Shown: positions 20,367 through 61,588 of the stretch, piece after piece | Layout: every line of letters begins with the position of its first letter | Position numbering within the stretch: position 1 is the first letter of the stretch | Assembly: GCA_025526915.1 (NCBI GenBank) | Contig: JAHLKH010000108.1 | Coordinates: forward strand, 1 to 64,000 | From: Entophlyctis helioformis | Lineage: Eukaryota > Chytridiomycota > Chytridiomycetes > Chytridiales > Chytriomycetaceae | Reading direction: 5' to 3' | Length of the DNA: 64,000 bases | Position numbers and translations under genes: made by a program | The notes under the pieces: generated by a model | Seen by the model: only the letters and a program-made list of their open reading frames with translations | What the model was told of the DNA's origin: nothing | Databases searched by the model: none

Positions 20367-21189
20367 CGGTCCGACAACCGATTACTGGCACTCGGCTGTT
20401 GACCAAGCAGCGGAACACGGACATCTCGATGTTGTGCAGTACCTGTTTGCGGCTGGTGTGACGGGATGCACGACGGATGCCATGAACCGGGCAGCTCGAA
20501 ACGGCCACCTGCACATCGTCAAGTGGCTGCATACCAATAGGACAGAGGGATGCACGAAGCAGGCGATGGATGACGCGGCTCAAAACGGCCATCTGCATGT
20601 CATCAAGTGGCTCCACGCCAACCGGACGGAAGGGTGCTCGACGTTCGCTATGGATCGGGCAGCTAGCAACGGACACCTGCCTGTGGTCAAGTGGCTCCAC
20701 AAGAACACGACGGCAGGATGTACGACTCGTGCAATGAATGATGCGGCTCGCAGTGGCGATCTGCATGTCGTCAAGTGGCTCCACGAGAATAGGACGGAAG
20801 GATGCACGGAAGAGGCAATCGTCAATGCGGCACGCAACGGCCGCCTCGATATTGTGCAGTGGCTCCACGAGACACGCCAAGAGGAGCTAACGTCCAAAAC
20901 TCTGAATGCCGCCATCTCTTCAGGACGTCTGGACGTTGCCAAGTACATGCACTCCAAGGGCATCTGCACATCGAACAGCGCACTGTTGTATGCAGCCAGT
21001 TCGGGTAGTGCCGAAATGCTGCAGTATTTACTGGATTGTGGATACGCAGTTGAACTCGGTTCACTCGTCTTTGATGAAAATGACGAAGTCGTCAATGTTC
21101 TGCTTGACAGCCTCACACTCGACCAGGCACAGGCGCTGCTGGCAGAAGCAAGCCAAGGGGAAGGCGATTTTTTTTTTTTTGATGGATAA
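19630..21189 (+). CDS. Ankyrin-repeat family protein with retroposon-altered C-terminus
   Basis: Single open frame from MLAERPTADN (19630) to 21189, 519 residues. In order: a low-complexity leader with VERRAVVEQVV; the family head module (PAEIHALILK, GPLTRFLCGLL, LQLWTEAFKMDWQGDLALLP, SMYDRLCKRF); MRHGWFDLLDF; then about nine ankyrin-like units of roughly 33 residues with consensus VVKWLHENRTEGCTT-AM-DAA--GHL. A closing segment reads LLDSLTLDQAQALLAEASQ. The last residues (GEGDFFFFDG) are read from a poly-T run, because a 179-bp element inserted there. The ancestral C-terminus is still legible after the insertion, at about 21356-21455 (MDIIEKLEFTIEELQ). The frame is open further upstream to 19363, with in-frame ATGs, so the start is a judgement. 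Function unknown; an interaction scaffold is likely. Confidence 0.8.
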   Translation: MLAERPTADNADAASDEHVRRLQSTVERRAVVEQVVGASSSQAVEPGQPAATSATTAQPGVPRYVVPPATGDLAFGSSHWDGKPAEIHALILKAAGPLTRFLCGLLGDKRRIDYTTRLQLWTEAFKMDWQGDLALLPDVKLTADNGLLLAHSRSMYDRLCKRFPLHTEPFYSSSDAYKNNYYQSFYNGRSDSQRLLLIPMRHGWFDLLDFTYPIVLARLAICFGCLDLLKHLDDKYSTLKDWMARHGPTTDYWHSAVDQAAEHGHLDVVQYLFAAGVTGCTTDAMNRAARNGHLHIVKWLHTNRTEGCTKQAMDDAAQNGHLHVIKWLHANRTEGCSTFAMDRAASNGHLPVVKWLHKNTTAGCTTRAMNDAARSGDLHVVKWLHENRTEGCTEEAIVNAARNGRLDIVQWLHETRQEELTSKTLNAAISSGRLDVAKYMHSKGICTSNSALLYAASSGSAEMLQYLLDCGYAVELGSLVFDENDEVVNVLLDSLTLDQAQALLAEASQGEGDFFFFDG

Positions 21190-21718: not shown

Positions 21719-23973
21719 TCATCCCCCTGGTCCGACACGTCCACGGTGATGTATCCATAAAGTACGCTGGAACACACCATGGGCCGCCTGAAGAAATGCG
21801 CACATTCGCGAGGCGAGTGGACGCACGTCTCCAGGTGCATTGACTTGTTGCCGGTCACCACAGAGCCAAGACTCTGTGATGTCCGCAACACCGGATAGAA
21901 CTCCTCCGCCGAGGAGCGTTATGTACACTTGGTCGATTCTTGTAGATACTCGGATGGTCCTAAACGTAGCCAGAAGATCGTCGTCATAGCCGAGAGCGGC
22001 GAGAGCGGCGGGATCGTTGGATTCGGGGAGTTTGTGTTCGATGGCTTCCGAGATCTGGGCAATGAATGGGGCGAGGTTGGCGTTGTCGCGTTGGATGGCG
22101 AGGCCGGTGCAGCTGACGACAAAGTGAGCCCACTCGTGGGTGCCGTTCAGGCTCTGGTTGCAGAGGATGCAGCAGCCGTCGGTGAAGGGGTGGTTGGCGG
22201 CGAGGAGGTTGAGGCGGAGGGCGAACTTGAGCGTCCACAGGCCGTCGATCCGGGCGAGCAGCAGAGTGCGGACGCCATCGGCAAGGTCGTAGCCGAAGCA
22301 AGGGGAGTTGGCGAAGCTGATGTCTGTGAACTGGCGGGCAAAGAAGGCGGTGGCAAGATCGGACTTGGGGGAGAGCAGACTGGTACGGGCAATACGGAGG
22401 TTGGTGCGGTCGAGGATGGAGAAGGTGGGGAGGGGGTCGTTACGGGCAACAGGAGGAGCAAAGTCGGAGAGGTGGAGACGGTTGAACAGGAGGCGAGAAA
22501 CACGAGTCCAGTAATGGCGACGGGCGGTGAATTCGGTGTTGTGGTGCTGGGAGAGGAGGGCGAGCGGGGTGCGGAGCGAGCGGGCCTTGCGGGACAGACG
22601 GAGACGAGCATCGACGGCGCGGGCATCGACACTGAAGACGCTTGTTTCGATGAGCAGCGGGGCGACGGGAACCGAGCGAGGAGCCTTGCAGATCAGACGG
22701 ACGCCGTTGTTGATGATGGTTTGCAGCGGGTTGAGGAGCGTGCGCTTGGAGCCGACAGCCTCGAGGCCGTAGCCGGCGACGCCGAGGGCCGATGCCTTGA
22801 AGACACGCAGCCGGACGTGGATGGGCAGCTTGGTGTTGGTGATGACCGGGTGCAGCGAGGCGACCGCGTTGCGGAGCGACTTGGCCTTGGCGTTGATCCA
22901 CGGCTTGAACGTGAGCTTGTCGTCGATGGTGACGCCGAGGTAGACGTACTCGTGCTTGATCGGCACCTGGATGCCGTCAATGGTGAAGAGCGGGGCTGGA
23001 GGGGCAGGATGGGCAGGGAGGGGACGGCCACGGCCACGGGCACGGGGAGGGCGAGGGCGAGGGGCATCGGGGTCGGGAGGGTCATCGGGGTCAAGAGGGT
23101 CATCAGGGCGATCATCATCAAAGGCAAAGCGGAGGATGGCGCACTTGGACACGCCAAAGGACATCTCCCATCTCTTGGCCCAGTCGACGACCAAGGTGAG
23201 GGCAGCGGTGAGAGCAGCGGGCGACTCGCACAGCAGGACAAGGTCGTCTGCAAAGAGCAAGCCGCGGATCATCTTGTTTCGGCCGTTGCCAGCTTGGTCG
23301 ACGCCTGGGATGTGGATCTCGGGGACGCCGTCGAGGATGTCGTTGATGAAGAGGTTGAACAGGATCGGGCTGAGAGGGCAGCCTTGGCGGACGCCGCGCT
23401 CGACCGGGAAGGACTCTGAGAGCGACGCGCCCGCGCGAGCACGGGCTGTGGGGTTGGTGTAGAGAGCACGCAGGTAAGCAAGCATGCGCGGAGGGATCTG
23501 CAGCCGTTCCAGCTTCCAGAGCAGGGCCTCGAAGGGCACAGTGTCAAACGCCTTGCGCAGGTCAACAAAGGCAGCATAGGTGGGCAGGCCCACTGCACGG
23601 CGACGCTGGATGATGTCGATGAGCGCACAGATCTGAGCGGGGCACTCCTCGCGGCGGCGGAAACCTGCTTGTTCGTGCACCAGCAGGTCGTTGGCTTCGA
23701 CGAGATCGTTGAGGCGAGCAGCGACGATCTTGGACACGATCTTGAGGCCGGTGTTGATCAGCGAGATGCCGCGGTGGTCATTGGGGTCGAGTGGGTCGCC
23801 CTTCTTGGGAATGGAGACGATGGTGGACGAGGTCCAGCGGTCGGGGATCTTTGCCTGCAGGAAGATGGCATTGCACACACGGAGCAAGGCGGCGGCAGCA
23901 GGATTGGGGGGAGGGTCAGCTGGTGGTGGTGGCTGCTGCAGGTACTCTTGGAGAGTCGGGAGAGGCTGGGGCG

Positions 23974-24004
<31 letters not shown>

Positions 24005-24403
24005 CCGAGGCGGCTCGTACAGCATGGTCTTGAAGAACGCTGCTGGCAGGCTGTCGTCGCCTGGCGCCTTGCGGGCCTGCATCTTGCGCAGAGTCGCGCT
24101 GATCTCGTCCCAGTCGAGCGGGGCATCAGCCTCCTCGACGTGGCGTCTGACCACGCGGGACGGAGGCTGCAGGGTCGCACCCAGCCGCTCCCAGTGGTCG
24201 CGGTTGAGGCTGTTGGATTGGGCAGCGCTGGCAAGGTCTCTGTAGTGGTCATGCCACACAGCGCAGATGTCGTCAGGCTCGTAGCTGATCAGATCGGTGC
24301 CTGACCGGCGGATGGGCGACGTGATGGCAGACGAGCGAGCGCCGCCCTTGGCCATGAAGCGGATCCTGGCCCAGGCCGCCCCCACGCGAGAGTCGGCAAA
24401 CAT
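21719..24403 (-). CDS. LINE reverse transcriptase ORF (5'-truncated)
   Basis: An 894-residue frame from ATG 24403; the frame is open upstream to about 24513, so the true N-terminus, including any APE-type endonuclease, is lost by truncation. The N-part has RKAPGDDSLPAAFF, and a poly-Gln run at about 23975-24005. The RT domain shows the classic order: IVSIPKKGDP and HRGISLINTGLKIVSKI, then AFVDLRKAFDTVPFEAL (first Asp motif), RGVRQGCPLSPILFNLFIND, and LLFADDLVLLC (catalytic FADD near residue 382). The C-terminal domain has a CCHC-like CCILCN...H....C zinc knuckle (about 22150-22180). The catalytic Asp motifs are intact, but loss of the endonuclease makes autonomous mobility unlikely. The last 26 residues lie in the direct repeat shared with 24513-24598. 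Confidence 0.9.
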
Positions 24404-24512
24404 CTCGGAGAGGTTAGCCGTGTGCTTGCGCCAGGCAGCAGTGTCGTCCTGCCTGGAGAGCGTCCTGGCTGCCCGCTTGGCATCGCGAAAGGCGTCGAGT
24501 GCCGTGGCGACC

Positions 24513-24600
24513 CCTCAGTTATGTCATCCCCCTGGTCCGACACGTCCACGGTGATGTATCCATAAAGTTCGCTGGAACACACCATGGGCAGCCTGAAGAT
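24513..24600 (-). repeat. Direct repeat: 3' coding end of an upstream LINE copy
   Basis: 84 of about 86 bases match 21711-21796 by eye (A/T and C/A differences). It encodes the same C-terminal residues (AAHGVFQRTLWIHHRGRVGPGG, split here only by the coding end). Homology stops at 24600, leaving a short 5'-truncated LINE tail next to the tRNA genes. Confidence 0.88.
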
Positions 24601-46486: not shown

Positions 46487-47679
46487 TACAGTCATGGCAA
46501 TGGCAATGGCATGTGGTTACCGTGCATTTTCTTGAGCGCGTCAATGATGCTCGTGTCGGGGTGCACGCAGTCGGGGTGCGGTGTCATGACACGCGAGACC
46601 GGCGTCTTTGCGGGGTCCAAGCCAGCAGCAAGCACGCGAAGCACCAGGTCCTTGGTGGTGAAGATGCCGGCCAGATCGCCACTAGGACGCGAGGGATCCG
46701 CCAGCAGCGGCTCAAAGACGAGCACGGCCGTCTCCTTGGCCTGCTTCATGAGCTTGACGGCATCGAGCACGGTGGCCGTGACCGAGATCATGGGGGCGTT
46801 GAGCGAGTCTTTGGCAATGAGCATGGCGAGGCTCGGGCACGCGAGCTGGTCGCGCAGGCCCTGGATAAAGTGCAGGGCGGCAGCGGCGGCCGAGATGGTG
46901 CTGGACGAGCGCATGTGCTGCGGCAGGCTGAGCTGGTCGTGCTGCATGTCGTGCTGGATCTGCTGCTGCGCCAGCTGGAACTGCAGGTCGTTAAAGTCCT
47001 GCTGGGCTCTGAGCGTGGCGTCGGGATCGTAGATGCGCTCGATGCGCTCGAGCGCCTCGTACAGGGCCTTTGTGATGTCGAGCACGGCAAAGACGGTGGC
47101 GGGGGTGGGCGAGGCCGACGCCGACGCCTTGAGGGCGCGCAGCGACTCGAGCGTGGTGGCGGCGTCCTCGAGGCCGCCGGCAAAGTCGAGGTCGAGGTCG
47201 TTGTCGTCGTCGTCCATGTCCTCGACGACGGGCAGGTGGCGGAAGCGGCCGGCGACCATCTTGTTGAGGGCGTCGGCGGCGTTGGACTCTGTTGTGACGG
47301 ACACGGGGTTCATGGTCATGACGGCGGCAATGGGCGTGGCCTTGGGCGACAGCGCCTCGGCGACGACCCTGTAGGCGATGTCCTTGTCGGTCAGGATGCC
47401 CGTGAGCTCGCCCGAGTTGTCGACGACGAGGATGGCGTCTTGGCGCTTCGCGGCCATGTACGCCGCCGCCTGCACCACCGACACGTTCTCGTTGAGCGGC
47501 ACCGTCGGGTGCGGGTGCAGCGACTGCACCGTCGTGGCCGTCGCCGTCGCCGTCGCCGTGGCCGTCGTGGGCGTGGGCGTGGCGGCCTCGTCGTGGCGGG
47601 CCTGCTGGGCCGAGGCGTGCCGCGAGTGCGTGTTGGCCGGCGTCGGCGTGACAGACCGCAGGCTCACGGGCCGGTTCAT
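45220..47679 (-). CDS. Four-CBS plus PB1 domain protein with C-terminal membrane anchor (Mug70-like)
   Basis: Starts at ATG 47679 (MNRPVSLRSVTPTPA). The first large exon (about 46530-47679) has two CBS pairs: SVVQAAAYMAAKRQDAILVV, GILTDKDIAYRVVAEAL, MTMNPVSVTTESN, FRHLPVVED; then VTATVLDAVKLMKQAKETA, GIFTTKDLVLRVLAAGLDP, VMTPHPDCVHPDTSIIDALK. Short exons follow (LHLPIMDSHGNVCGMADVLKLT). A PB1 domain is at about 45680-45940 (FVFKLKDDISKKVHRFSF, DLVHVAYVDDEGDTIHLANSRDLEDAV). After a Gln-rich segment, the frame that contains a membrane anchor (VVAPIVLVAGLAVIGAFLL, stop 45220) differs from the PB1 frame. They can be joined only by a two-base change within GAGAG near 45390. Fungal homologues share the CBS-PB1-anchor order. 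CBS pairs bind adenosyl ligands; PB1 mediates dimerisation. Confidence 0.85.
46449..46486. repeat. (CAG)n microsatellite
   Basis: About 12 uninterrupted CAG units between two exons of the CBS/PB1 gene, apparently intronic. On the gene's strand this is a CTG run close to a splice site. Confidence 0.9.
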
Positions 47680-47873
47680 GGCGGAGATCGCGGTTTGCTG
47701 GGCAGACGCCAAACAACCAGCTGTAACGAGGGGCAGGCAATTCTGTGTTTCCCCATAGAAAACCCTGCGCCGGCACCTGATTGGCCGGCTGGTTTGCCTC
47801 GAATTTTGTTCAATTTGGCATCCAATTTCCAATCTTTTTGAATCCAATTTCATATTCTTGTCCGAATTCCCAG

Positions 47874-48415
47874 TCACTCTGAGCAGCCTGCAGTCGATGC
47901 CTTCTCAAGCCGTGGACGCTTTGACGCTGGCTTGTGGTCTGCTGAGCCTGTCCAAGGGGCAGCAGTTGTCTGCGTGTTGGTAGTGTCACGAAGAACTGTC
48001 CTGCCATTGCCTGTTGTAGTTGTTGGCCTTCTGCATCCAGGTGGCGCACTTGTGTGTGCTGCTGGGGCTGCCTGCTGCAATGTCCGAACGGGCAACGTCA
48101 CAGCCGACACAGACGGACTGGCATCAGCTGCTGCTGCTCTCTTCTGCTTGCTTGACGCTCTTTGGCGGCTGGCTGTTGGCGTGGCAGCTGCAACAACGGT
48201 TGGCTGTCCAGGCTCGTCCGTAAGGTACTTGTCGTCGTCAAGATAGTCAAGGCACACAGTGTCAACAGAGTCGCAACTGTTGACAGCCATTGCACAAGAG
48301 GCAGACGAGCTCACCAACAAGGACATGGATGGATCACTTGGCGGATCGTCGAGCTGCCGCGTATCATCGAGCTGCTGTAAGGCATCACGCTTGGCTTGGT
48401 CTGACTTTGAGAACT
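47874..48415 (-). CDS. Hypothetical protein, last exon (Asp-rich, basic C-terminus)
   Basis: The minus frame is open from an acceptor-like CTTGACAG (exon start about 48415) to the stop at 47874. It begins FSKSDQAKRDALQQLDDTRQLDD, continues through SVDTVCLDYLDDDKYLTDEPG, a Lys/Arg stretch (SSKQKRAAAADA) and HKPASKRPRLEK, a good nuclear-localisation-like motif. An internal ATG at 48326 gives a 150-residue product. Upstream exons on this strand could not be followed with confidence. No domain recognised. Confidence 0.45.
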
Positions 48416-49639
48416 GTCAAGGCGATACACACAGAATGCCTGCGCAATTCTGCCCACTCATGTCAACCTCTGTCCTGGCTGCCTTTGTGTACACAGCAAG
48501 GTCACAGCGACAAGTGTCTTTGCAACAGCCAGCAGCGCAGATGATCAACATGTCTTGCATTCAAGGCACGATGCCGTCGCACCCCGTCATCCACAGCCAA
48601 CAGCCACGCCCACCTGGCTTGTCAGCATGCCCGCGAATGCAATGACGAGCAGCATGCACAGTCTCGGTCAACAACAAAGGGCTGATCGACTGCAGGCTGC
48701 AAAGAACAAGTCGTCCCAGACCTGCTGGCGACTGAAGTCAACAGTATCCAAAGTCGGCAATGAAGACACTGAGCCCAAGGAGAAACTCGCCTTGCACCAT
48801 CATCACAAGAAAGTGCGACACATTTGTGAGATCTGGGATGACTACTCGGTCAAAGATTGGAGGGCTGTCATGGTGTTGGTTGGCAATATCTGTTCCAAGG
48901 AGCCAGATAGCAATATGGCGCATCTCAGTACTGCTCAGAGCACAAAGGAGGGCTGGGCATCAGGCTGGAGGTATTCACACGGACGAGATCTAGCAATTCC
49001 ATGCGAACTTGGTGATTCCAACTGCGGCATGGACCCTATGAACAAGGCTGGATGGGCAACCAGTGCTGTGGCTACCATGCCAACACCCAAACCCTGTTGA
49101 GCATCAAGCAAGTCTTTGGTTGCCCATTCAACCAAGGTGTCCAGGTCTGCTGTGGCGCGGTTGTCTCTGCAGCACGCAAAAGAGTGCCGGCTGGATGCAA
49201 AGAGGCGCCAGTTGAGACTGCCACAGGCAGGAGAGCCCTTGGTGTGCCGCCGAGTGGCCATCAAGCCACCACCTCCAAGACAGGCTGCGTGCCAGCCTCA
49301 AAGTGGAGACGATCTGCATCAACAGCATCGCTGCTCAGAGTGGCATGGCAATCCAGCCAAGAAGAATGAAGTTGAAATGAAACCAGGCGTCAACCTGAGC
49401 AAAAGTCAATGCGAGCCAGCCAGCCAGTCAGCGGCACGTGCACGGTCGTGGACGAGAACACACGCCTCGTGACAGATCCATGCCACCAGACAACAAACAT
49501 GGCTGTACTGGTGGAAGAGGCGGCATTGTTGACCTTTTCATAGACTTCTGATTGGTTGGCTGTTTGGTGGAAAATCAAAGCAAACTTGTGTTGACTGTTC
49601 TGCTCAGGTTACTAAAGGTAGGGAACAAGCACCACCCGA
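48416..49639. other. No confident gene; competing short frames on both strands
   Basis: The plus strand has a frame at 48555-49100 with a plausible stretch (KKVRHICEIWDDYSVKDWRAV). The minus strand has LFASSRHSFACCRDNRATAD and DLDTLVEWATKDLLDA at about 49090-49200. Neither has a start, clear splice sites or recognisable family. It may hold upstream exons of the minus-strand gene ending at 47874, or decayed sequence left of the nuclease block. Confidence 0.4.
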
Positions 49640-49930
49640 TCACTCGACGCACGGACACGCACGGACACGCACGGACACGCACGGACCACGCAGGCAGGAT
49701 TGCAGGCACGCAGGATCGCAGGCACGATTGCAGGCAAGACTGCACGGACACGCAGGATCGCTCGCAGGATCGCAGGCACACAGGCATGAGCGCAAGATTG
49801 TAGGCAAACAGGCACGGCCACGACCGCACACACAGTCGCTCGCAGGCACGATCGCACGAGCACGCACAATCGCACAATCGCACAAACAAACAAACAAACG
49901 GTCACACACGGACGCGAAGGCATGGGCACA
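49640..49930. repeat. GC-rich short tandem repeats
   Basis: Degenerate copies of ACGGACACGC (49648-49685), then irregular GCAGGCACGATCGCAGG-type units to about 49860, then (CAAA)-like units to about 49900. All frames are open because of the composition; no gene. It lies immediately 5' of the nuclease block. Confidence 0.8.
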
Positions 49931-49968
49931 CAGGTGAGACCACACGATCGCAGACACAATTGCACGAC

Positions 49969-52174
49969 ATGGGGCTCCCTATGCTTGTTTCGTGGTTGGG
50001 GAAGCATGGCGGCAGCTGTGTACTCTTGATCGGTATGCTTGTGTCCACGTTCGTGAGGCTTGTGCTAGACAGCGCATGGCCGTCACGAGATCCAAGCGAC
50101 GCCAACACGGCCACACCAAGCAACCCTGGTATTCTTCATGTCGATGTGATGAGCGTGTTCTATCCGCACTTCTCGGGGGCAGCAGGGCCCGATTACCCAG
50201 TATCCACAGCCGGGTGGATACCGATCCTCAAGCCCGTCATCACATCGTTCATTGCCGAGTACGGTGCTGAGCACGCCTATATCTTTCACGTTGACGGCAA
50301 GTACGGCGATACCGGTATCAAGTCCGCTCACAAGGGCCGTGCCCTGCAAGTCCTGCGTTCAGTGGGCACTATTCTGCGCTGCCTTTACAGACGGTGCATA
50401 GGCAAGGGATCTTGGCACTTGAAGCGGTACGTACACTTCTTTGTGCCTCAATGTGGCGATTCTAACATTTGGTTGACGATCCAGGAAAGAGAAGCGTGCA
50501 CTGCGACTTTCGTTCACCATCACACACGATGACAAGAGGCTCATCAAAGAGGCGATCGCGGAGATCCTTGGCTCTGGGTCTCGACACAAGGTCTGTTGGT
50601 GTAATCATGAGGCCGACGTCTGTATTGCCCGCCGCGCAGCCCTCCATGCAAGCGAGCCAAGGTATAGATTGCCATGACATCTGTCTGCTATGATTGACGT
50701 CTAACAGTCTTTGTCTCCATCAGCGACACCCGATGGCCGTCATTTGTAACGACTCGGATCTCATTGCGCACTGCGCTGGACGCTGCCCGGTCATCATGAC
50801 GTCTAAGCGGAAGGGGGAGGCCAAAAGCCTGCTGTCTTTTAACCATCCAGGTATCGCGTCCGTTGCATCGGCCCTTGACGTCTATGTCTTCCCTGATGTT
50901 TGCCAGTTTGTGGCTTCGTTTGGCAAGAGCGACTATCATGATTGTTACGGCCGTGGTGCGTGCGATTCCTGTCCTGATGCTCTGTATTGCCATCCATGCT
51001 ACAATGCCAACTAACTCATGTTGCCATTCACATTGCCTGGAAGGCCATCGCACGGCGTCAACACCACCAACAAGTACGTCGAGGAGGCAGCAAGCAAGCG
51101 GAATATCTCGCCGGAGGAGTTCTGCATTGTAGTACTGGGCCGCCAGACGGGCTTGCCGGCTGGTCTCGGGGCAGTGAGTATGCACGCAGGGGAACGGCGG
51201 GCAGACGACTGCAAGAACGGGGGAAACCAGAGCGGCCGGTGCGGCCCGACAATGTCTGTCCGGTCATGTGGGTCACGTGGATCACGTGGATCACGTGACC
51301 GCGACCGAGCATCCGTTACATGCATCCTACTCCACAAACCAAGGATTGCAAAAAAGTTCAAGGCAGATGTTCGAAATGCTTACGCCGAGGAGATGTGGAC
51401 GATCGGAGGCGAGGACCTTGCAAAGTCGTTCCTTAACGCCTTCTCCGTTTTCGTGTACCACGACGAGTCGGGGGCATTGGCCAATGCGTTCAAACCTCCA
51501 ACTGGCTCCAGCAGCCCATCTGGCAACGCGCCAGTGCATAGGCAAGTTATTGCATGACTGGCTATGGGATGGTGGCATGGACGTGTTTGCATGCATAGCG
51601 CCGTACTGACCATCCATTTCCACATGGCAATGACAACAGCATGGCTGTTGACACGACTGCCACGCCTCAACCAAGGTATGCATGCACGCATGTGATCTCT
51701 TGGTGTGTCTCGCATGACTGATTCATCATTCCTGTCTTTGATGTCATTGTTGGATCACGATGCAGCTGCCAGCTACATGCCGGTTGCCTCCTGATCCACC
51801 CCAAGTCGCAGCAAGGCAACCCCGATCCCAACATTGTGCACCTGACGCAGAAGGATATCGACTGGCACATCAAGAAGATTGTCAAGACAAGGCAAATGGA
51901 TGCTACCTTTCTCAATGTCAAGCGATGTCCGATTGCATTTGACTGCATTGTCAAGCACATGCCAGGTTACCTCGCTCGCAACCCCGATGGAGTCGCAGGC
52001 CGTGACATTCTGGCGACGATCAGCAGGACGGCAAGTTTGCAACTTTTAGAGATTGCCCGCGAGAAGTCTCAAGTAGCGGTAGTGCGCGCAGAGCTTGGTC
52101 GACTTGATCGGTTTGTTTGGGACACACATGTACATTATGGCATGACTTGGATGCATGTGCATTTCTCACCTTGA
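49969..52174 (+). CDS. FEN1/XPG (Rad2)-family nuclease-like protein beside Fanzor
   Basis: Exon chain from ATG 49969. MGLPMLVSWLGKHGG resembles the MGI-x-GLW-x-L start of Rad2 nucleases. Metal-ligand positions appear in family order: LHVDVMSVFY (Asp of the N domain, about 50139), FHVDGKYGD (Asp, about 50288), HEADVCIARRA (Glu and Asp, about 50607), VICNDSDLIAHC (Asp-x-Asp, about 50741) and FGKSDYHD (the GxDY-like Asp, about 50920). NTTNKYVEEAASKR (about 51060) fits the following helix-hairpin region. Introns are short (for example near 50035-50095, 50428-50484 and 50700). Downstream exons at about 51770-52115 (KDIDWHIKKIVKTRQ, FDCIVKHMPGYLARN) continue without a stop-start boundary. Family role: structure-specific cleavage of DNA flaps or bubbles. 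The end is uncertain; it may continue into the next exons or into the Fanzor gene. Confidence 0.65.
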
Positions 52175-52204
52175 AGTGTCTAACTCAATCCACTGCCCGT
52201 TGGA

Positions 52205-53060
52205 CAGGGCGCCGCTCGGAGGATGACGAATCAGTTGGGCAAGATTCTGGATCCTAAAGGTTCATCCTTCCAGAATCTGTCAACACCGCGTACGTTTGGC
52301 TTGCATTGGAATGACTCGACGCCATGTACTGACAGCAGCCATTTTGCCGAATGTGCTATTCCAGAACCAAAACCGCAGCCAGGCATGCAGCAAGTCAAGC
52401 AAAAGCCCAAGCAGCAAGGCAAGGTCATCAACCAAGATGATCTCCATGAATTCTCGGCCAAGAACCGCAAAAAGGCCAGAAAAAAGCTCAAGGCCCTGGG
52501 ACGCATCATGGATGACCAATCAGTGACGCTTGTCAAGCAGCTGAAAGAGGCCACCGAGATGCTATTTTTGATCATCAATCAACCCTCGGTGCGTCTTCAT
52601 CTTGACTGTCTGTGTGTGCATGCAATGACTTGGTGCGATCACTCATTTCTCCAATTGGCAGGCGGCTCCATCTAGAAAGCGGCACAAGCGGCGTAAGCGA
52701 CCACAGCCATCTGTTGACGCTCAGGTGGAAGAAGCACAGCCCGTGGTCTTTTCTCTCAATCGACATTTAGACACCAAGACGACGGTTAGTTCTGATGTAC
52801 CATTGGCACTTGCATATGCATTGTGTGCACTCAGAATGCATTGCTCATGCTGCATCCAACCTCCACAGCCACGACTTCAATTCACAAAGAAGCAGGAGGC
52901 CGCGCTCATGAAGAGAAGCACATTGCAAGCTGCAAAGGCCGCGACACTGAAGGCCATCAAGGCCAACAAGGGAAAGTCGAGCCGGTTTGCCCGTAGTAGT
53001 TTGCCTGCTGGCACGAGACATGGGTAAGTGATGTATGCTGTGCCATTTGCCTTGAGTATG
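52205..53060 (+). CDS. Lysine-rich exons linking the two nucleases (unassigned)
   Basis: Short plus-strand exons with ordinary coding character: ARRMTNQLGKILDPKGSSFQ (52220-52290), EFSAKNRKKARKKLKALG (about 52449-52502) with LVKQLKEATEMLFLIINQPS, SRKRHKRRKRPQPSVDAQ (about 52673-52725), and FTKKQEAALMKRSTLQAAKA (about 52882-52945). Strongly basic, suggesting nucleic-acid binding or nuclear targeting. They could be the C-terminus of the FEN-like protein, the N-terminus of the Fanzor, or a bridge in one long gene. Confidence 0.4.
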
Positions 53061-53089
53061 CTTGCTGACATGCGTGTTTTGGCAGAATC

Positions 53090-56000
53090 GTGCTTCGCTC
53101 ACGATGGGCACTACATCTGCTGATTCGAAAGCTGGGTCGCACTGTTACAGGGCCACTCATGTCGCTCTCTGCGGCCATCGGCAGCAATGATCAACAAACG
53201 GCAGAGCAAGCAACCAATCAACCTGCTGTGGATGCGCCAGATCAGCCTGCCGTGGACGAGCCTGATCATCATGGCGCGAGAGTGGCGCTTAAGGTACGAT
53301 TTAGGATTGCCATTCTGCCTGCATGCATGGCTTTGCATGGACTGACTCAGAGGTTGGCCTGGTGCGCAGAAAATGTTGTCGGGCGATCCAGGAAGCGCCA
53401 AGGTCTATGGCATCGAAGCCAGGAAGACACCAAAGATATGGACGCGGTGTTTGATCATCGAGGACATGTTTGCAAAGGTGTACTCATTCATCGTCGGTCT
53501 TCGGCATGCTGGGTTCGTCGTGATTGGCGCCATCGTCGAAGAGCTACTCGATCTTGTCCCGGATGCACCACTCCCGCCCAAGTACCACGTCTACAAGTGG
53601 ATCGATGGCAAGACGACGCGGTATTGTTTCTTGGACCTGATTTCAAGGGCATCGACAACCTCGGCGACCATGCCAGCATTGACAGCCTCGGCGGCGTGAC
53701 CAAGGCGGAGCTCTTCTCGGGTCGATTCACCCTCGGAAAGGACGTCACTGCCCGCCTCATGTACGGCTCGAGTTTGTACAATCACAAGAGCAAGAAGCCT
53801 CGGTATGGCCATCCGGTGCAACTGGCGACGGGTACAAGACTCGAGCGCATTATGTTTGAGAAGGTCGAGAAGCCCAAGACAGCCGAGGAGTCAAAGGACG
53901 CAGAGCAGCATGAGGATGCCGAGGACGCCGAGGATGCTGAGGACGCCGAGGATGCCGACATTCACGAGCAGCCTGACAATCACGAGCAACCTGACGAGCC
54001 TCAGCAGCCTGATCAGCCTGCAGCAGCAGCACCAACAGTGCCGACATCCAACCAGCTGTTCACGGCACTCATCAACAGCACCTCGGGTGGCGAGACAACT
54101 GTGGCCTGCATCTTTCGCCACCTGTCGTTCATTTTCACCGGCAAGGAGATGGCCAAGCCGCAGCATGACATGGAGACGATCAATGCATGGGTCGTCACTG
54201 TCATGCAGTTGATGATCCACCGCGCATGGACGCGCGGGATGGTGCAGGCCAGTGCGGACAAGATGTACGCGGACAAGAATGGCGCGCAGCAGGCCGACAC
54301 AATCCAGACGGACATGCAGAGGACGTCACGTATCAGGCAGCTCTACCATACCGCCTGGACGACACTCTCTGCGGGAGCGCGACAATGACATCTTCAGCAA
54401 CCTCGCCAGAGAGGTGAGCACCATACTCGCGCGGCACTACATTGGAAGTCAATTGACCTGGTGGTTGGTGCAGCCATCAAGCTTGCTCCCGGAATGTCTC
54501 GCGAGCAGGCGAAAGAGTTGGTTCAATCCCTGTTCGATGAAGCCGATGCCGCCAAGGCTGCTGCTGCCAAAGCCACCAAGGCTGCTGCTGCCAAAGCCCA
54601 AGGCTGCTGCTGCCAAAGCCACCGCGCCAAGACCATCGGCGGCCAAGAGAGGGAGACAAACGAGTGTGGCGTCAAGCACTGAGGACGCCGCGTCAAGCCC
54701 GACGCAACCCAAGAGAGCAAGGCGCAAGAGTACAGCGCCAAACCCATCGTCGGCCGATCTTGACACCACCCTTCCTGCGCCAAGCAACAAGAGAGGCCAG
54801 TCAGGCTCATCGTCGGCCACTGACAAGAGCGGCGCGACCAAGAAGGCACGCGGCAAGAAGCCGGCCGCCAAGGACGCCGCAGGGAAAAAGAGCGCTGTCG
54901 TGACCCCGCCAGCATTGCACAAGCTCGTGGCCATCATACGCAACATGTCGCTGTCGACTGTTGGACGCTTCAAGCAGCTGCGCGATCTCGCTGGAAGAGA
55001 GAGCATCAAGCTCTGTCCTCAAGCGGCAAGTCGTGATCCCTTTGTTCTTATCACCGAGACCGTCCTCTTCTGGGCGGTTATGGGGCTGAAAAGGGATCGC
55101 ACCAGCAAGTCACAAGATCCTGTCTTGCGAGCATTGAGAACGGAGCTTCTTGCTGCCATAAGTCAGTCACACTGCCTGTCTATGCCATCTTTTTATGATT
55201 TGATGCTAACAATCCACTCTTCTCAAAGAGCCTGGCTGGCTTCTCAAAAGCTTAACTGGAAAGACTCGGAGCTTGCATTGCCCAATGACAAGATCGACAA
55301 GGCGTTCAGTTCAAGTGACGAGCTGTGCGTCATGGATCTTCTGCTTCCGGGTCTTGCCTCCGATACACGGCGCTATCAAACGCCAGCACAGGCCAAGTTG
55401 CAGATTGATGCGGCCAACACCGCGGCAGAGACGGCCCTCGCCGCGCCCATTGACAAGGCCACAGCCATCCAAAGAACAACCCCATGACTTTCGATCTGGA
55501 TGACGAGCAGTTGGTGGACATGATCAAGGCTGAGGTTGCTTTTCCTCAAGTGCTACCGACCAAGTCGGTCAGATTTGGCAGCATCAAGACCGACGGGAAG
55601 AGTGTCTTTCAAACTGTTCTGGAGTTTCGCACAAACCGTCCAAAGTCGCCTCGCAGTATGTGGCGTGCTTGGATGCTGTGGTGCACGCATTGATTCTGAC
55701 CACTGCCTTGCTCTGCAGATCCCAACGCGGCGACTTCAAACGAGCAGCCCAGTCACGTTGAGGATGCTGATGACTCTGATTCTGACGATGACTTGGATGA
55801 TGACTTGGATGACGATGACTTGGATGATGGCCTTGATGGCGAATGTGAGTTGCTGTGCCAATCCAGACGCGTTCTTGTTGTCCACACCAACTGACATGCC
55901 ATCCACAGCCGCCAATCCAGCCGACTCATCAGCCGCCAAGCCATACACGCCCAATCCTGTAAGTCACTTGCATGCCAACCTCGCGCATTGGTGCACATGC

Positions 56001-56912
56001 ATTGCACATTCCTCACTCATGCCATGGCATGACAGGTCAAGCGCAACTTTTACGCCTCGCAGCGATTGCCCAACATCATCAAAGCCAACAAGCTGCTCGC
56101 CGACAAGGACTTTGTTCGCGTTGTCAGCTTTGATTGGGGCGAGCGGTACCTGTTTGGCGCGTCCAGCATGCTAGTCAATGTCAAGGAGGAGACATACACG
56201 CTCGAGGCCAACTACGTGCTCTCCTCTGGCGTATTTCATGCTGAGCGTGACCTTCAGCGGTGGTATGCATGCAATGACTCTGCCAGCGCACTCTTGACCA
56301 GATCAACTCACAGTGCCTGCCTCCTGTGCCAGGCTCAACAATCGATATGCCAAGGCGTCCGACGTCCACGAGGCCATTGCATTCAAGACAGCAAAGCATG
56401 CCGATCCAGACGCCAAGCAGGCGAGAGAGCCTTTTGGGATCTGCGCTGCCATGCGTACTGCACGCCATTCCTGAATGCACGGGTACGTTTTCTCTGGTTC
56501 TGGATGCCATTGACATGACCGCCATGCTGCTTGATGCCTGCTGATCACACTGGATGGCATGGCATGGCATGGCATTCCACAGAAAGTCAAGGACAAGCGG
56601 TTTGCCATGCGCTGCAAGCGCATGTCTGATCGCGGACAGGCTCTTGAGGGCATCATGAAGCTGGCAGGATCGACCACTAGATATCGCGCATCTCGTGCAT
56701 CTCAAGGCCTCCCTGTCAGCAACCCAGAGAAGGACATTTCCGTTGTGTGGGCATTTGGCATCGACTTTACAGGCCAAGGTGGCCGGCACGCTGTGTTTGA
56801 GAAGTTTCTCATCAGGCATCTGCGGTCGTCTGGATATGCCTATGTGCGTCTGGATATGCCACGCTGTCCATCCATCCATCCATCCATCCATCCATCCATC
56901 TGTGCACCAACT

Positions 56913-56948
<36 letters not shown>

Positions 56949-57472
56949 TCTACCGCTGCAATGAGAACCTGACCAGCCAGATGTGCCCGCAGTGCAAGCA
57001 GCGGATCCCATACGAGAACCGCACCAACCTGCGACGCTACGAGTGCACAGACTGCGAGACCGTCTACCACCGCGACGTGCTTGGTGCCACCAACATCGGA
57101 ATGGTTGCACTGGAGCATCTGCTCTTTGGACAACGGCCGCTCTACTTGACGCACACGCCAGTCGATCCGCCTGTCGTCCAGCAGCCTCCAGCACCAGATC
57201 CGCCTGTCGTCCAGCAGCGTTCTAGACACACCATCAAGCGACGTCTAGAACCAGATCCGACGGTCGACCAGCAGCGCCCAAGACGTGCCATCAAGCGGCG
57301 TCCAGCACCGGATCCGCCTGTCGTCCAGCTGCCTCTAGCACCGGATCCGCCTGTCGACCAGCAGCGTCCAACACGCAGACAGCGTGCCAGCAAGTCAAGT
57401 GCCACTCCACATGCTCTGACTTCCAGCACAACCACCAACACTTTGAATCGGGGCACCTCCCGATCGACCTAA
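53090..57472 (+). CDS. Fanzor: eukaryotic TnpB-family RNA-guided endonuclease (possibly damaged copy)
   Basis: Multi-exon gene ending at stop 57472. The C-terminal half carries the TnpB/Fanzor RuvC-zinc ribbon: VVSFDWGERYLFGA (RuvC-I, Asp at about 56130); an exon with FGIDFTGQGG (about 56757-56790); CNENLTSQMCPQC (Glu at about 56962, then the first CxxC); CTDC (about 57043); and HRDVLGATNIG (RuvC-III Asp at about 57074). The Glu placed next to the TSxxCxxC ribbon, rather than in a separate RuvC-II strand, is a Fanzor trait. The N-terminal portion (about 53090-55500) has no recognised domain; it includes acidic repeats, an Ala/Lys repeat (KAAAAKAT) and basic nuclear-type stretches. The C-terminus has about six PDPPVVQQ-like repeats. 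Apparent frame changes near 53633, 54315, 54365 and 54598, and a TGA near 56478 unless spliced out, question integrity. Confidence 0.72.
56866..56946. repeat. (ATCC)n and (CA)n microsatellites in a Fanzor intron
   Basis: About eight CATC/ATCC units (56866-56900) and then about 14 CA units (56921-56946) fill the intron between the exon ending SSGYAYV and the zinc-ribbon exon starting at about 56947. Confidence 0.9.
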
Positions 57473-57741
57473 CGGGTCACTTTATCACATCATTGTTCAA
57501 ACAATGGTGCAAGGTGAGCATCTCGTTGGATGTGCCTCGCCCGCCTGTCGTCGCATGCTCGTTGCTGACTCGAACCTTCCATCGTGTGATATGCGGGCTT
57601 GCATTCGACGCCTCTCGCGTCCAATTTAATTCAATGATTCTTGGTAATTGTTTGAATGTCGGGCCATTTGCCGGCGGTTTGCCGGCATTCCCTCGCCCTG
57701 TTGCCCACCCCTCGCCCTGTTGCCCACCCCTCAGCTGTAAC
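57473..57741. other. Fanzor 3' flank and RCC1-gene 5' region, with small hairpin
   Basis: Contains CATTGTT-CA-AACAATG (57489-57504), a 7-bp stem hairpin 17 bp after the Fanzor stop, and two direct copies of TTGCCCACCCCTC (about 57707-57735) just upstream of the next ATG. In known Fanzor/TnpB loci the guide RNA comes from the sequence overlapping and following the 3' end of the ORF, so this is the place to expect it. No RNA structure was computed. Confidence 0.4.
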
Positions 57742-59583
57742 ATGCCTACTGCTGCTGCCACGGCTGCACGGGCCGCATGTGCACTGCGGGCCCTGCCTGC
57801 CCTGCCTGCCATGACCTCCTACACCAACCACGCCCGCCTCGCCCGCCTCGCCTGTGGCCGCAGACACCTGGCGTCCACTGCCGCCGCCCGCTTCCAGCAG
57901 CAGCAGCAGCAGCAGCAGCAGCCCCGCAAGACCGGCCCGGCCGACGAGCCCAGCAACGAGCACCCGTTCCACAGGGGCCAGGCCGCCTCGTCCAGACGCA
58001 GCCGCCTCGTCATCCTCGCCGCCAGCGTCGCCGTCTCCGCCATCACGCTTGCCGCCGCCGTGCGTATCGTCCACGCCGAGCCATCTGCCGCTGCGTCCGA
58101 CGCAGCCGCGTCTGGCAGGCTGCCCAAGTCGCCCCTGCAGACTCTGATCGACGACGCCCGCAGCCATCCCGGCATCTGGATCTGGGGCTCCAACGGATCG
58201 GCCCTTGTCGATCCCTCGTCGTCGTCGTCGTCTGCTGCCGACCCTGCCGTCGAAGCCATCCCCGTTGCCTCCCTCAGCGGCCAGGCCTTCCGCGACCTGG
58301 CTCTTGGCGACAACCATGCCGCTGCCATCAACGAGCGCGGCGACCTGCTGCTGTGGGGAAAGCAGCCCGCAGAGACTGCAGAGACTGCAGCACCAGCCTC
58401 GTCTTCGTTGCCCGCTGTCATCCTGGCAGGGAAGGATCTGACACAGGTCGCTTGCACTTCCAGACGCGTCTACGCCGTCTCTCGCTCGGGCTCGCTCTTC
58501 CAGATTGATCGGAGCAACGCCAACAAGGCGACCCACATCAGACTGCCGTCGGATGCAGCATGGGGCGAAAAGATTGTCCAGGTCTCGTCCGGCTCGGACC
58601 ACGTGGTTGCCGTCTCAAACACCGGCGCAGTGTACACGCTCATGTGCTCAGACAATGGAAACAAATACGGCCAGCTCGGCCTCGGCCACAAGGACTCCAA
58701 GGCTGTCTCGCCCTCTACCTTGTACCGCGTCGCAAAGCTTTCCGGCACCCGCTGCAACAAGGCCGCTGCTGGCCGTGGCCACACCATTGTTGGCTCGACT
58801 GACGGCCGCGTCTTTGCCTTTGGCTTAAACAGTGTCGGCCAGCTGGGCATTGGCTCCAGCAAGACGCAGACGGCCGTTGTGCCCCTGGAGATCAACACGA
58901 TCTGGTCGGCTGCTGGAAACCCCTCGGACCAGGCGCGTCCGTTAGACGCTCACTGCACTCGCATTGCCGCTGGTGGAGACACGACGCTCTTTGTGATTGA
59001 AACGCCGGATGCAACTCAGGTGCTTGCCTGTGGCAACGGCCAGTTTGGCCAGCTGGGCAATGGCGCCTTCCTCCAGGCTATGCACACGCCGACCAAGATC
59101 AAGAGCCTGTCCAACCTGTGCGAATACGACGAGCACCGTCGTCGCGTGGTTCCAATCCGCGTATCCAAGATTGCTGCCAGCGACTCGCACTGCGCCGCCG
59201 TCCTGGAAAACTCGACTGGATCGGGCAGATCGGCCGGAAGCCGCGGATGGTTCTCGTGGCTCTCGCCATCGACTGCGGTCTCATATGGACACGACTTGCT
59301 CATGTGGGGCATGAACACCCATCTGCAGCTGAACCGCGCAGATGGCAAGCGTGGCAACCAGCCCGTTCCCGGATATGTGCTGCCCATCCAGTACACCAGC
59401 CCGTCTGTGCTTCCTGCAGCGCGGTCCGACTCCAGCGAGCCTGACGCAGATCCCAACATGCGTCTGCAGCTTGCATCAGCTGCCCCTACTGCCATTGGCC
59501 CTTTCAAGAAAACGCATGTTACTGAGCAGGGCATTGCCCTTGGTGATGGCGTCTCTGCCGTCTACACTCGCATTGTCACTTGA
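57742..59583 (+). CDS. Mitochondrial RCC1-repeat protein (Fmp25-like)
   Basis: Single exon of 613 codons from ATG 57742 (MPTAAATAARAA). The N-terminus is Arg/Ala-rich (RLARLACGRRHLAS), a good mitochondrial presequence, then poly-Gln, then one hydrophobic helix (LVILAASVAVSAITLAAAVRIV, about 58005-58070) as inner-membrane anchor. RCC1 beta-propeller units follow: GIWIWGSNGSA, FRDLALGDNHAAAINERGDLLLWG, NKYGQLGLGHKDS, AAAGRGHTIVGSTDGRVFAFGLNSVGQLGIG, ACGNGQFGQLGNG, DLLMWGMNTHLQL. The layout matches fungal Fmp25/RCC1-like mitochondrial proteins, linked in yeast to cytochrome bc1 assembly. Its start lies 270 bp after the Fanzor stop. Confidence 0.88.
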   Translation: MPTAAATAARAACALRALPALPAMTSYTNHARLARLACGRRHLASTAAARFQQQQQQQQQPRKTGPADEPSNEHPFHRGQAASSRRSRLVILAASVAVSAITLAAAVRIVHAEPSAAASDAAASGRLPKSPLQTLIDDARSHPGIWIWGSNGSALVDPSSSSSSAADPAVEAIPVASLSGQAFRDLALGDNHAAAINERGDLLLWGKQPAETAETAAPASSSLPAVILAGKDLTQVACTSRRVYAVSRSGSLFQIDRSNANKATHIRLPSDAAWGEKIVQVSSGSDHVVAVSNTGAVYTLMCSDNGNKYGQLGLGHKDSKAVSPSTLYRVAKLSGTRCNKAAAGRGHTIVGSTDGRVFAFGLNSVGQLGIGSSKTQTAVVPLEINTIWSAAGNPSDQARPLDAHCTRIAAGGDTTLFVIETPDATQVLACGNGQFGQLGNGAFLQAMHTPTKIKSLSNLCEYDEHRRRVVPIRVSKIAASDSHCAAVLENSTGSGRSAGSRGWFSWLSPSTAVSYGHDLLMWGMNTHLQLNRADGKRGNQPVPGYVLPIQYTSPSVLPAARSDSSEPDADPNMRLQLASAAPTAIGPFKKTHVTEQGIALGDGVSAVYTRIVT

Positions 59584-59770
59584 TGATCCACATCCATGCG
59601 CCAAAGTAAAGCAAAGTGTTCTTTCCTTGCATAGCACGCCACGCCAGCCATGGCATGGCATGCCGTACCGTGTCAGTGGTTGTCCCACATTCTCATGTGC
59701 TCCAGATGGACGCGGTCGCGTCGAGCGGATCTTGTCCTCGCAACAACAAAGCAAGCAGGCGGCTGTGACG

Positions 59771-61588
59771 ATGCTGGCGGAGCGACAGACGACAGTCAAC
59801 GCAGACGCAGCAGCAGCAGCCAGCGACAAGCTGGTGCGCAGTCTGCAGAGCCAGCTGCAGACCACTGCCGAGCTGCTGGTTGCCCTTGGCCGCACCGACA
59901 TTGTGCTGGCTGTGGTCGAGCAGGTCGTTGGTGCGAGCGGCAGCCAAGCCGTCGAGCCAGGGTTGCCAGCAGCAACAGCAACCGCACAGCCCGGTGTGCC
60001 TCGCTATGTGGTGCCGCCAGCGACTGGCGACCTTGCGTTCGGACACAGCCACTGGGACCGCAAGCCAGCCGAGATCCACGCCTTGATCCTCAAGCACGCC
60101 GGCCTGCTCACGCGCTTCCTGTGCGGCCTGCTCGGCGAAAAGCGCCGTATCGACCAGGCGACCAGGCTACAGCTGTGGATCGATGCGTTCAAGATGGACT
60201 GGCACGGCGATCTGGCTCTGCTGCCTGACGTCGAGCTGACGGCCGACGACGGACTGCTTCTCGCACACTCTCGCTCCATGTACGACCGTCTCTGCAAGCG
60301 CTTTCCGCAGTGCAGCGAGACCGACAGCTTCTATTCAAGATCAGACGCATCCAGCAACAACTACGACGGGCCGTTCGGCTTTGATTGCTGGAGCTTAAGG
60401 CGGCTGCTTCTCATTCCGATGCGGCACTGCTGGTTTGATCTGCTCGACTTTACGTATCCGATCGCACTCGCTCGCTTGTCCATCCGCTTTGGATGCCTCG
60501 ATCTGCTCAAGCATCTCGACGGCAAGTACAATGTACTCCAGCACTGGATGGCCAAGCACGATGCGACAAGCGAGTACTGGCACCGTGTAGTTGATCAAGC
60601 AGCGAAACACGGACATCTCGATGTCGTGCAGTACCTTTTCGATCTGGGTCTGACATGCACGGCTGGTGCCATGGACTGGGCAGCTTGCAACGGTCATCTG
60701 CATGTCGTCAAATGGCTGCACGAGAACAGGACGGAAGGATGTACGACTCGAGCGATGGATTGGGCGGCAGTCCACGGTCACCTTCATGTGGCCATCTTCC
60801 TCCACGAGAATCGGACAGAAGGATGCACGAAACAAGCGATCGACTGGGCGGCTGAAAGGGGCCATCTGCCTATGGTCATCTTCCTTCACGAGAGTGGGAT
60901 GGAAGGATTCACGACTGATACGATGAACGGCGCGGCAGTCCACGGCCATCTGCATGTCATCAAATGGCTCCATGCCAATAGGACCGAAGGATGCACGACT
61001 CGTGCGATGGACGGCGCGGCTGCCAAGGGTCATCTGCACGTCGTCAAGTGGCTCCACGAGAATCGGACGGAAGGATGCACGACGTTGGCAATGGATAATG
61101 CGGCCAACAGTGGCCATCTGCATGTCGTCATCTGGCTCCACGAGAATCGGACAGAAGGATGCACGGAAGAGGCAATGGTCTATGCGGCACGCAACGGCCG
61201 CCTTGATATTGTGCAGTGGCTCCACGAGACGCGCCAAGAGGAGCTAACGTCCCGCGCACTCGATGATGCCGCCGGCTGCAGAAGCTTGGACGTCGTCAAG
61301 TACATGCACTCCAAGGGCGTCCGCGCATCGAGTAATGCTGTTGAGACGGTAGCCAATTTGTGCAACACCGAGATGCTGCAGTACTTGCTGGACTATGGAT
61401 ACTCGGTTGAACTCGGAGCACTCAACCGCGCCGGAATTCCCGCCATCGCCAATATGCTCCTTGAACGCCTCACGCTGGACCGGGCACAGGCGCTGCTTGC
61501 CGAAGCAAAGCAAAGAAAATCCAAAAAGGCCACCATCAATCGACTCGAGTCGACCATCAAGAAACTGCAAAAGCCGCGCAGGCGATGA
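59771..61588 (+). CDS. Ankyrin-repeat family protein (full-length paralogue)
   Basis: Single frame of 605 codons from MLAERQTTVNADA (59771); open further upstream to 59342. It has the same order as the 19630 gene: leader with LVRSLQSQLQTTAELLVALG (possible coiled coil), head module (PAEIHALILK, GLLTRFLCGLLGEKRR, WIDAFKMDWHGDLALLP, SMYDRLCKRF), MRHCWFDLLDF, then about eleven units of 33 residues with consensus VVKWLHENRTEGCTTRAMD-AA--GHLH. It ends with an intact basic tail (KSKKATINRLESTIKKLQKPRRR is split by the stop at 61588), the part that the 21-kb copy lost to an insertion. Function unknown. This is the best complete family member in the window. Confidence 0.88.
   Translation: MLAERQTTVNADAAAAASDKLVRSLQSQLQTTAELLVALGRTDIVLAVVEQVVGASGSQAVEPGLPAATATAQPGVPRYVVPPATGDLAFGHSHWDRKPAEIHALILKHAGLLTRFLCGLLGEKRRIDQATRLQLWIDAFKMDWHGDLALLPDVELTADDGLLLAHSRSMYDRLCKRFPQCSETDSFYSRSDASSNNYDGPFGFDCWSLRRLLLIPMRHCWFDLLDFTYPIALARLSIRFGCLDLLKHLDGKYNVLQHWMAKHDATSEYWHRVVDQAAKHGHLDVVQYLFDLGLTCTAGAMDWAACNGHLHVVKWLHENRTEGCTTRAMDWAAVHGHLHVAIFLHENRTEGCTKQAIDWAAERGHLPMVIFLHESGMEGFTTDTMNGAAVHGHLHVIKWLHANRTEGCTTRAMDGAAAKGHLHVVKWLHENRTEGCTTLAMDNAANSGHLHVVIWLHENRTEGCTEEAMVYAARNGRLDIVQWLHETRQEELTSRALDDAAGCRSLDVVKYMHSKGVRASSNAVETVANLCNTEMLQYLLDYGYSVELGALNRAGIPAIANMLLERLTLDRAQALLAEAKQRKSKKATINRLESTIKKLQKPRRR

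Follow-up and report, generated by a model that had tools for sequence, protein, structure and literature searches.

A decayed high-copy transposon of Entophlyctis helioformis with a probable fusion of FEN1/EXO1-like and Fanzor-type nucleases

Does a Fanzor-type nuclease (the eukaryotic counterpart of the RNA-guided nuclease TnpB) that is encoded among the genes of a chytrid belong to the host chromosome, or to something that moves through it? The question arises for a stretch of 64,000 nucleotides of Entophlyctis helioformis (contig JAHLKH010000108.1; hereafter, the window), where a preliminary description made from the letters alone had placed such a nuclease at 55500-57472 in an intron-rich chromosomal setting. 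That framing had to be corrected: the locus lies inside a transposon, with at least 150 matches to its zinc-ribbon (TNB) domain in the genome and a perfect target duplication at this site. The extent was also too small, as coding begins near position 49969 and the transposon itself at 47728. What is observed in this family comprises the ends of the element, its repetition, the joint occurrence of two nuclease halves, a largely conserved exon chain and catalytic motifs. We consider it probable that the locus is a decayed high-copy transposon with short inverted ends and 9-bp duplications, whose one gene of 19 exons (~1,940 residues) combines a FEN1/EXO1-like nuclease with a Fanzor-type RNA-guided nuclease.

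A repeated element and its Fanzor-type half

The interval 47728-57732 of the window is a decayed copy of a high-copy, ~10-kb DNA transposon of E. helioformis. A search with the TNB family profile through the genome that the window comes from (482 contigs, 29.57 Mb in all) scored the best 150 of 205 candidates, and all 150 were above the cut-off. The locus is therefore one member of a large, scattered family; because some contigs are duplicates (C182 and C98, and likewise C169 and C22, have common flanks), the number of copies is overestimated. The fetched loci named L021-L041 were chosen by TNB match, and where 20 fetched copies were aligned with the window, the element had a sharp 3' end.

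Both ends of the element recur. A query spanning 47600-49300 gave 91 candidates, of which the best 40 were scored; 37 of the 39 matches besides the window begin at 47725-47758, and the remaining two begin further inside. A query for the other end (57480-57740; best 40 of 211 candidates scored) returned matches that mostly stop at the equivalent of about 57712-57716, and the window's own 3' end has one additional 19-bp terminal repeat. Most of the 29 fetched 5' ends open with GAGGGG or a more extended run of G, with (C/T)AATT no more than a few bases further on. The longer form of the 3' end terminates in CCCCTC; the inverted ends are short and imperfect. A second group of 3' ends terminates about 50 bp sooner, at ...TCGGGCC. 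Both ends were read in 11 copies. The 9-bp duplication is complete (9/9) in the window, C22 and, by eye, C264; it reaches 8/9 in C235 and 7/9 in C95, the last being weak since offsets were searched. C169 has C22's insertion site in common, with an imperfect duplication. Counting against the proposed reading, five of the 11 copies (C16, C103, C112, C116, and C18) have no clear target duplication; in C16 and C18, 7/9 is attained only through overlap of the compared letters with the end of the element itself, and both were counted as lacking one. A 9-bp target duplication together with inverted ends, as found here, is a feature of the MuDR superfamily. Identity as a LINE or a Helitron was ruled out by the inverted ends, by the target duplication and by 3' ends that, where seen, lack poly(A).

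Within the element, the 3' coding part bears out the central claim of the preliminary description, namely a eukaryotic TnpB/Fanzor-family RuvC-TNB nuclease with the catalytic Glu beside the zinc ribbon. The motifs DWG, CNENLTSQMCPQC...CTDC, and HRDVLGATNI stand in this order on the plus strand, in separate exons, and the catalytic Asp, Glu, and Asp codons (Table 1) are within 2 nt of the positions proposed earlier. In a profile search of the C-terminal part, the zinc-ribbon exon 19 matched Pfam Cas12f1-like_TNB (E 2.4e-10, above cut-off) and, more weakly, NCBIfam guided_TnpB (E 8.4e-7; 28.6 bits, below the model cut-off of 100); hence, the zinc-ribbon motif is not a chance occurrence. All eight members of a profile built from eight copies matched both models, guided_TnpB below its cut-off. 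The read-through translation also contains the TnpB/Fanzor superfamily motif D-X(125,275)-[TS][TS]-XX-C4-X(5,50)-RD (PMC3627910), with about 187 residues, TSQM-C4, 5 residues, and RD.

A Fanzor fingerprint has been described as DPG at RuvC-I, near exclusive to Fanzors, plus the relocated Glu, and the same source reports a second clade with the relocated Glu plus a D-hydrophobic-G motif (PMC10711439). The Glu lies six residues ahead of the zinc ribbon, as in Fanzors, within a CNENLTSQMC motif present in 21 of 21 loci (L021-L041); the stretch around this Glu and the RuvC-III Asp is identical in all 21, which is to be read with their selection by TNB match in mind. A search of PDB sequences with the eight-copy profile ranked Guillardia theta Fanzor1 first, at a non-significant E of 0.36, in a collinear alignment (TDG with TDG, DWG with DPG, zinc ribbon with zinc ribbon) to which the TDG/RuvC-I stretch adds about 1 bit. 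Two results weigh against the Fanzor-type reading: the RuvC-I motif is DWG rather than DPG in 17 of the 18 loci with an exon-16 match (the L031 match has no DWG motif), and an AlphaFold2 (AF2) model of the partial RuvC domain, with a predicted local distance difference test score (pLDDT) of 45.6, was too poor for use. Judged from these sequence features, the expectation that the C-terminal half works like a Fanzor is well founded; it may itself be a Fanzor.

A probable single long gene and its N-terminal domain

The motifs described earlier make up only the C-terminal third of a larger coding unit. Comparison of the window with its relative L041 (97.3% and 93.9% identity over two aligned stretches) led to a model of 19 exons from 49969 to a stop at 57472, with splice sites and phases that are consistent along the chain when one copy is set against the other. 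Each of the two has frame changes or stops of its own. The window exons, read through with X at the breaks, give 1942 residues; exons 1-5 and 13-19 of L041 are open without change. In the window, a 193-bp insertion in exon 4 and frame changes in several exons have left the copy broken, so that of the earlier wording "encodes, or recently encoded" a guide-directed nuclease, the second option fits. The adjoining RCC1-like and ankyrin-repeat genes have long open frames, and assembly error is therefore unlikely as a general cause. The insertion belongs to a dispersed repeat (86-98% identical) that is also present in or near L022, L027, L034, L036, and L039, with a 5-bp overlap at the empty site in L041.

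A single polypeptide of about 1,940 amino acids (aa) that joins both nuclease halves is, on this sequence comparison, likely. Among 150 listed N-terminal matches, 59 have a listed TNB match 4.5-9.5 kb downstream on the same strand, and 43 of these 59 pairs are spaced 6.4-6.85 kb apart; a TNB match was upstream in none and on the other strand in one. Searches with the window's exon peptides (tblastn) found the same exon order in the diverged copies L026, L027, L029, L032, L034, and L035, where the N-terminal half is about 30-60% identical and not all exons were found in each copy. In most of the rows compared, the introns from e6-e7 to e11-e12 have their donors and acceptors at matching exon edges; exceptions include L032 and L021 at e7-e8 and L029, L032, L021, and L036 at e11-e12. 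Because the halves co-occur and the exon order and introns between them are largely kept, a single gene is favored.

We regard it as unlikely that the element instead holds two genes, a FEN1/EXO1-like nuclease and then a separate Fanzor-type protein downstream. Such an arrangement has a precedent in giant-virus Mariner elements, where transposase, endonuclease, and Fanzor are separate proteins (PMC3627910), and it would suit the annotated proteins, which are fragments of either half; none among those found spans both, a point against the single-gene model. In addition, reading through exon 4 leads to a stop shortly past its end in the window, L026, L027, L034, L041, and the annotated protein P0008. 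However, in four of seven copies this stop lies after a good GC-type splice donor (AG|GCAAGT; GCAAGA in L034, differing in L029 and L032), the annotated protein P0009 appears by eye to continue past the nuclease into what corresponds to exons 5-6, and the conserved introns described above likewise argue against a gene boundary.

The preliminary description called the large N-terminal region atypical of the short TnpB core; part of this region looks like a second nuclease. The N-terminal fifth looks like a nuclease of the FEN1/EXO1/XPG type, based on ordered acidic motifs, a Pfam XPG_I_2 match in one copy and a low-confidence structural model. Six acidic positions (in HVD, VDG, (E)AD, DSD, and (N/T)D) are invariant in seven of seven stitched, aligned copies, and the first Glu of EAD is kept in six of the seven, reproducing the ordered seven-acidic-ligand feature of the 5'-nuclease superfamily. 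These seven positions presumably correspond to the FEN1 ligand residues. XPG_I_2 was detected in three of seven copies, exceeding its cut-off in L029 (25.7 bits versus 24.2) and falling below it in L027 and L035, with no match in L026 or L034. Weak matches to the same family occur in all five annotated proteins (best E 0.0047), and a 5'-3' exonuclease profile matches three of the five weakly (best 0.027). In a Foldseek search of the PDB with an AF2 model of P0008, ranks 1-39 were all 5'-nucleases or PIN-type proteins by title (plastid exonuclease 1, EXO1, FEN1, T5 FEN, T4 RNase H, ExoIX, GEN1, XRN/Rat1, and a PIN protein), three of them at E ≤0.001, with TM-scores of 0.2-0.5 and identities of 8-18%.

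It is quite improbable that this is an ordinary Fanzor-type transposon in which an unrelated, lineage-specific extension makes up the N-terminal region and resembles FEN only superficially. Several results do pull that way: no Pfam XPG family was found in the window's exons or in the joined L041 piece, sequence and profile searches of the PDB returned no FEN, and an exon-wise genome search with XPG_I_2 found two loci, neither among the 150 listed N-terminal matches. The weakness of the P0008 model (pLDDT 53.0) also counts against the nuclease assignment. On the other side stand the above-cut-off XPG_I_2 copy and its weaker companions, the exonuclease profile, the 5'-nuclease fold matches and the order of the acidic motifs.

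Table 1. Features of the transposon copy in the window (positions are those of the 64,000-nt stretch)
Feature	Position	Strand	Remark
Whole transposon, GAGGGG...CCCCTC	47728..57732	+	From 5' and 3' ends of copies and target duplication
5' target-site duplication copy, 9 bp, AGCTGTAAC	47719..47727	.	
5' terminal inverted repeat, GAGGGGCAGGCAATTC	47728..47743	+	L080 3' end read inwards is GAGGGGTGGGCAATTC
5' region	47728..49300	+	92-95% identity in 39 other top-scored matches
Exon 1, start and first part of FEN/EXO1-like nuclease	49969..50426	+	HVD, FHVDG
Exon 2	50485..50661	+	Acidic motif EADVCIAR
Exon 3 (start approximate)	50724..50957	+	Acidic motifs NDSDL and SDYHD; frame change in window copy
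Exon 4 (approximate), end of nuclease domain	51037..51545	+	Insertion inside
193-bp dispersed repeat	51128..51320	.	Inserted in exon 4; absent from L041
Exons 5-11 (approximate), between nuclease halves	51637..53293	+	51637-51673, 51766-52138, 52208-52289, 52365-52591, 52662-52784, 52869-53024, 53086-53293
Exon 12, N-terminal part of Fanzor-like half	53370..55164	+	Frame changes in window copy
Exon 13, WED-like strand	55229..55655	+	IKTDG; frame changes in window copy
Exons 14-15, acidic linker	55720..55959	+	55720-55845, 55908-55959
Exon 16, RuvC-I	56036..56262	+	Catalytic Asp codon 56132-56134 (DWG)
Exon 17	56333..56490	+	One frame change in window copy
Exon 18, RuvC-II region	56583..56843	+	
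Exon 19, C4 zinc ribbon (TNB), repeat-rich C-terminus, stop	56948..57472	+	Relocated Glu (56963-56965), RuvC-III Asp (57074-57076)
3' end of element	57473..57732	+	Expected guide RNA place
3' target-site duplication copy, AGCTGTAAC	57733..57741	.	Directly before ATG (57742) of RCC1-like gene

Selection, the 3' end and neighboring genes

Ratios of nonsynonymous to synonymous change (dN/dS) were calculated between copies. In the FEN part, L041 versus six diverged copies gave 0.17-0.33, at proportions of synonymous differences (pS) of 0.63-0.74; these were six of seven comparisons. The RuvC exons of the same six pairs had a pS of 0.13-0.20 and a dN/dS of 0.57-0.87. Other values fit less well with a conserved two-nuclease protein: 1.01 for the FEN part of L022, a deletion derivative (67 codons), 0.27-0.87 for the RuvC exons across all 11 loci compared, 0.14-1.12 for the TNB exon over 11 loci (1.12 in L027), and 0.91 for the acidic linker of L040. 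When 11 copies were aligned with the window, identity was 45-70% at 55501-55600 and 78-85% at 55601-55700; it fell to 39-69% across the acidic linker and was mostly 75-97% between 55901 and 57100, introns included. Across subfamilies, the N-terminal coding part is much older than the 3' third of the element, from 55600 on. Younger common ends around older, diverged middles thus point to exchange or gene conversion between copies.

The 240 nt at the 3' end are conserved across a 12-row alignment (12 of 18 loci anchored, L030 left out, and the window added). No signal of a guide RNA was evident there: the fold was ordinary, with a z-score of -1.84 and 7 of 200 shuffles folding equally well, only one of 55 pairs was altered on both sides, and Rfam had no match in the element at E ≤1. 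About 40 nt past the stop (about 57512), 12 of 12 rows carry a splice-donor-like AAGGT(R)AG, one without the R, that faces outward. The protein searches were similarly unhelpful to the proposed reading, in that the full-length query had no scored match; full-length and core queries together returned no relatives outside E. helioformis, and only "hypothetical protein" entries from this species (seven of seven matches in one search and five of five in another).

The 3' end of the element is 9, 14, 12, and 27 bp ahead of the start codons of sense genes in the window, L022, L025, and L040, respectively (RCC1, aminotransferase V, GCP, and Mog1 by Pfam). A neighboring gene was found for eight of 16 copies tested, six in sense and two in antisense; six of the 16 had been chosen for a nearby sense open reading frame (ORF) and were tested in sense only. 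The further sense neighbors were COX4 and saccharopine dehydrogenase (both weak, below cut-off), and the antisense neighbors were actin and a weak ubiquitin-conjugating match. Gene distances exclude the rows L036, L038, L039, L030, C264, C103, and C116 of 30. A placement of element 3' ends just ahead of sense genes is, on these numbers, suggestive. Elsewhere in the window, 1-1850 and 18523-21189 are, by eye, near-identical inverted copies of an ankyrin-repeat gene, 59333-61588 holds a further ankyrin-like frame, and the minus strand at 21719-24514 has a 931-aa open frame that resembles, by eye, a non-long-terminal-repeat (non-LTR) reverse transcriptase.

Proposed mechanism and relation to known elements

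The RuvC half may cut DNA specified by an element-derived RNA, as TnpB and other Fanzors do (PMC10432273, PMC10711439), and such cutting could help to retain or re-copy the element, favoring its persistence. Going by its family, the FEN-like half might trim 5' flaps or resect ends that arise from excision or insertion repair; a role in guide RNA maturation is less likely. Transposition itself would probably depend on a transposase supplied in trans, because none was recognized in the element pieces scanned. Beyond these pieces, the Mutator-like element (MULE) transposase PF10551 was the sole family sought, and had no genome match at E ≤0.001 in an exon-by-exon search from which introns may hide it. 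The 5' 1.5 kb showed no codon-position bias in the single pair compared (window versus L022), and a second gene is therefore not proposed there.

It is highly improbable that the protein forms a two-nuclease RNA-guided machine that places the element and makes it self-sufficient without a DDE transposase, with the Fanzor half directing it to sites immediately upstream of genes and the FEN half preparing the ends for insertion. The least credible alternative, a fused protein that is itself the recombinase of an autonomous element integrating via its own nucleases, draws on the lack of a transposase domain in the scanned pieces, of a coding signal in the 5' region and of a PF10551 match (the only transposase family sought), but a DDE transposase is what the inverted ends and the 9-bp duplication suggest, and Fanzor1 elements that have 9-bp duplications but lack their own transposase are already known from fungi (PMC3627910).

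Those fungal elements, from Rhizopus, Phycomyces, and Mucor (ROr-4, PBl-3, and MCi-4), have MuDR-like terminal inverted repeats (TIRs) (PMC3627910). Like the E. helioformis transposon, they have a Fanzor-type protein and 9-bp duplications and carry no transposase themselves; in the accessible text, a fused nuclease is not mentioned for them. SPu-1 (SpuFz1) of Spizellomyces punctatus is likewise a fungal Fanzor transposon with a RuvC-Glu-TNB core (PMC3627910, PMC10432273). It is about 2.1 kb long, encodes 633 aa in a single ORF, and has 33-bp TIRs and a TA duplication; the E. helioformis element is 10 kb long, with DWG and a gene of 19 exons for about 1,940 aa. An endonuclease (GIY-YIG) and a Fanzor also share one element in Mariner PGv-1 of a giant virus, but as separate proteins, with another nuclease type and in a Mariner (PMC3627910).

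Guillardia theta Fanzor1 (PDB 9cer), the first-ranked but non-significant match, is collinear over TDG, RuvC-I, and the zinc ribbon and differs in having DPG where the E. helioformis element has DWG. The N-terminal domain shares with EXO1, FEN1, and T5 FEN its fold matches (from a low-confidence model, at 8-18% identity) and the order of its acidic residues; it differs from them in probably forming one protein with a Fanzor-type nuclease, encoded by a transposon. We know of no FEN-like domain in Guillardia theta Fanzor1.

Fanzor-type fungal transposons were already known, and the unexpected part here is the fusion of nuclease to nuclease. A FEN/EXO1-Fanzor fusion was not found described in the literature searched, which was mostly outside subscription papers and supplements, nor in the accessible portions of PMC11423790 or PMC10711439. 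If true, the fusion would show how RNA-guided cutting is linked with the processing of ends in a mobile element of eukaryotes, and it would suggest editors that cut and resect within one protein. The combination of DWG with a relocated Glu bears on the origin of Fanzors, and the many diverged copies in a chytrid would make the role of Fanzors in the life of a transposon testable.

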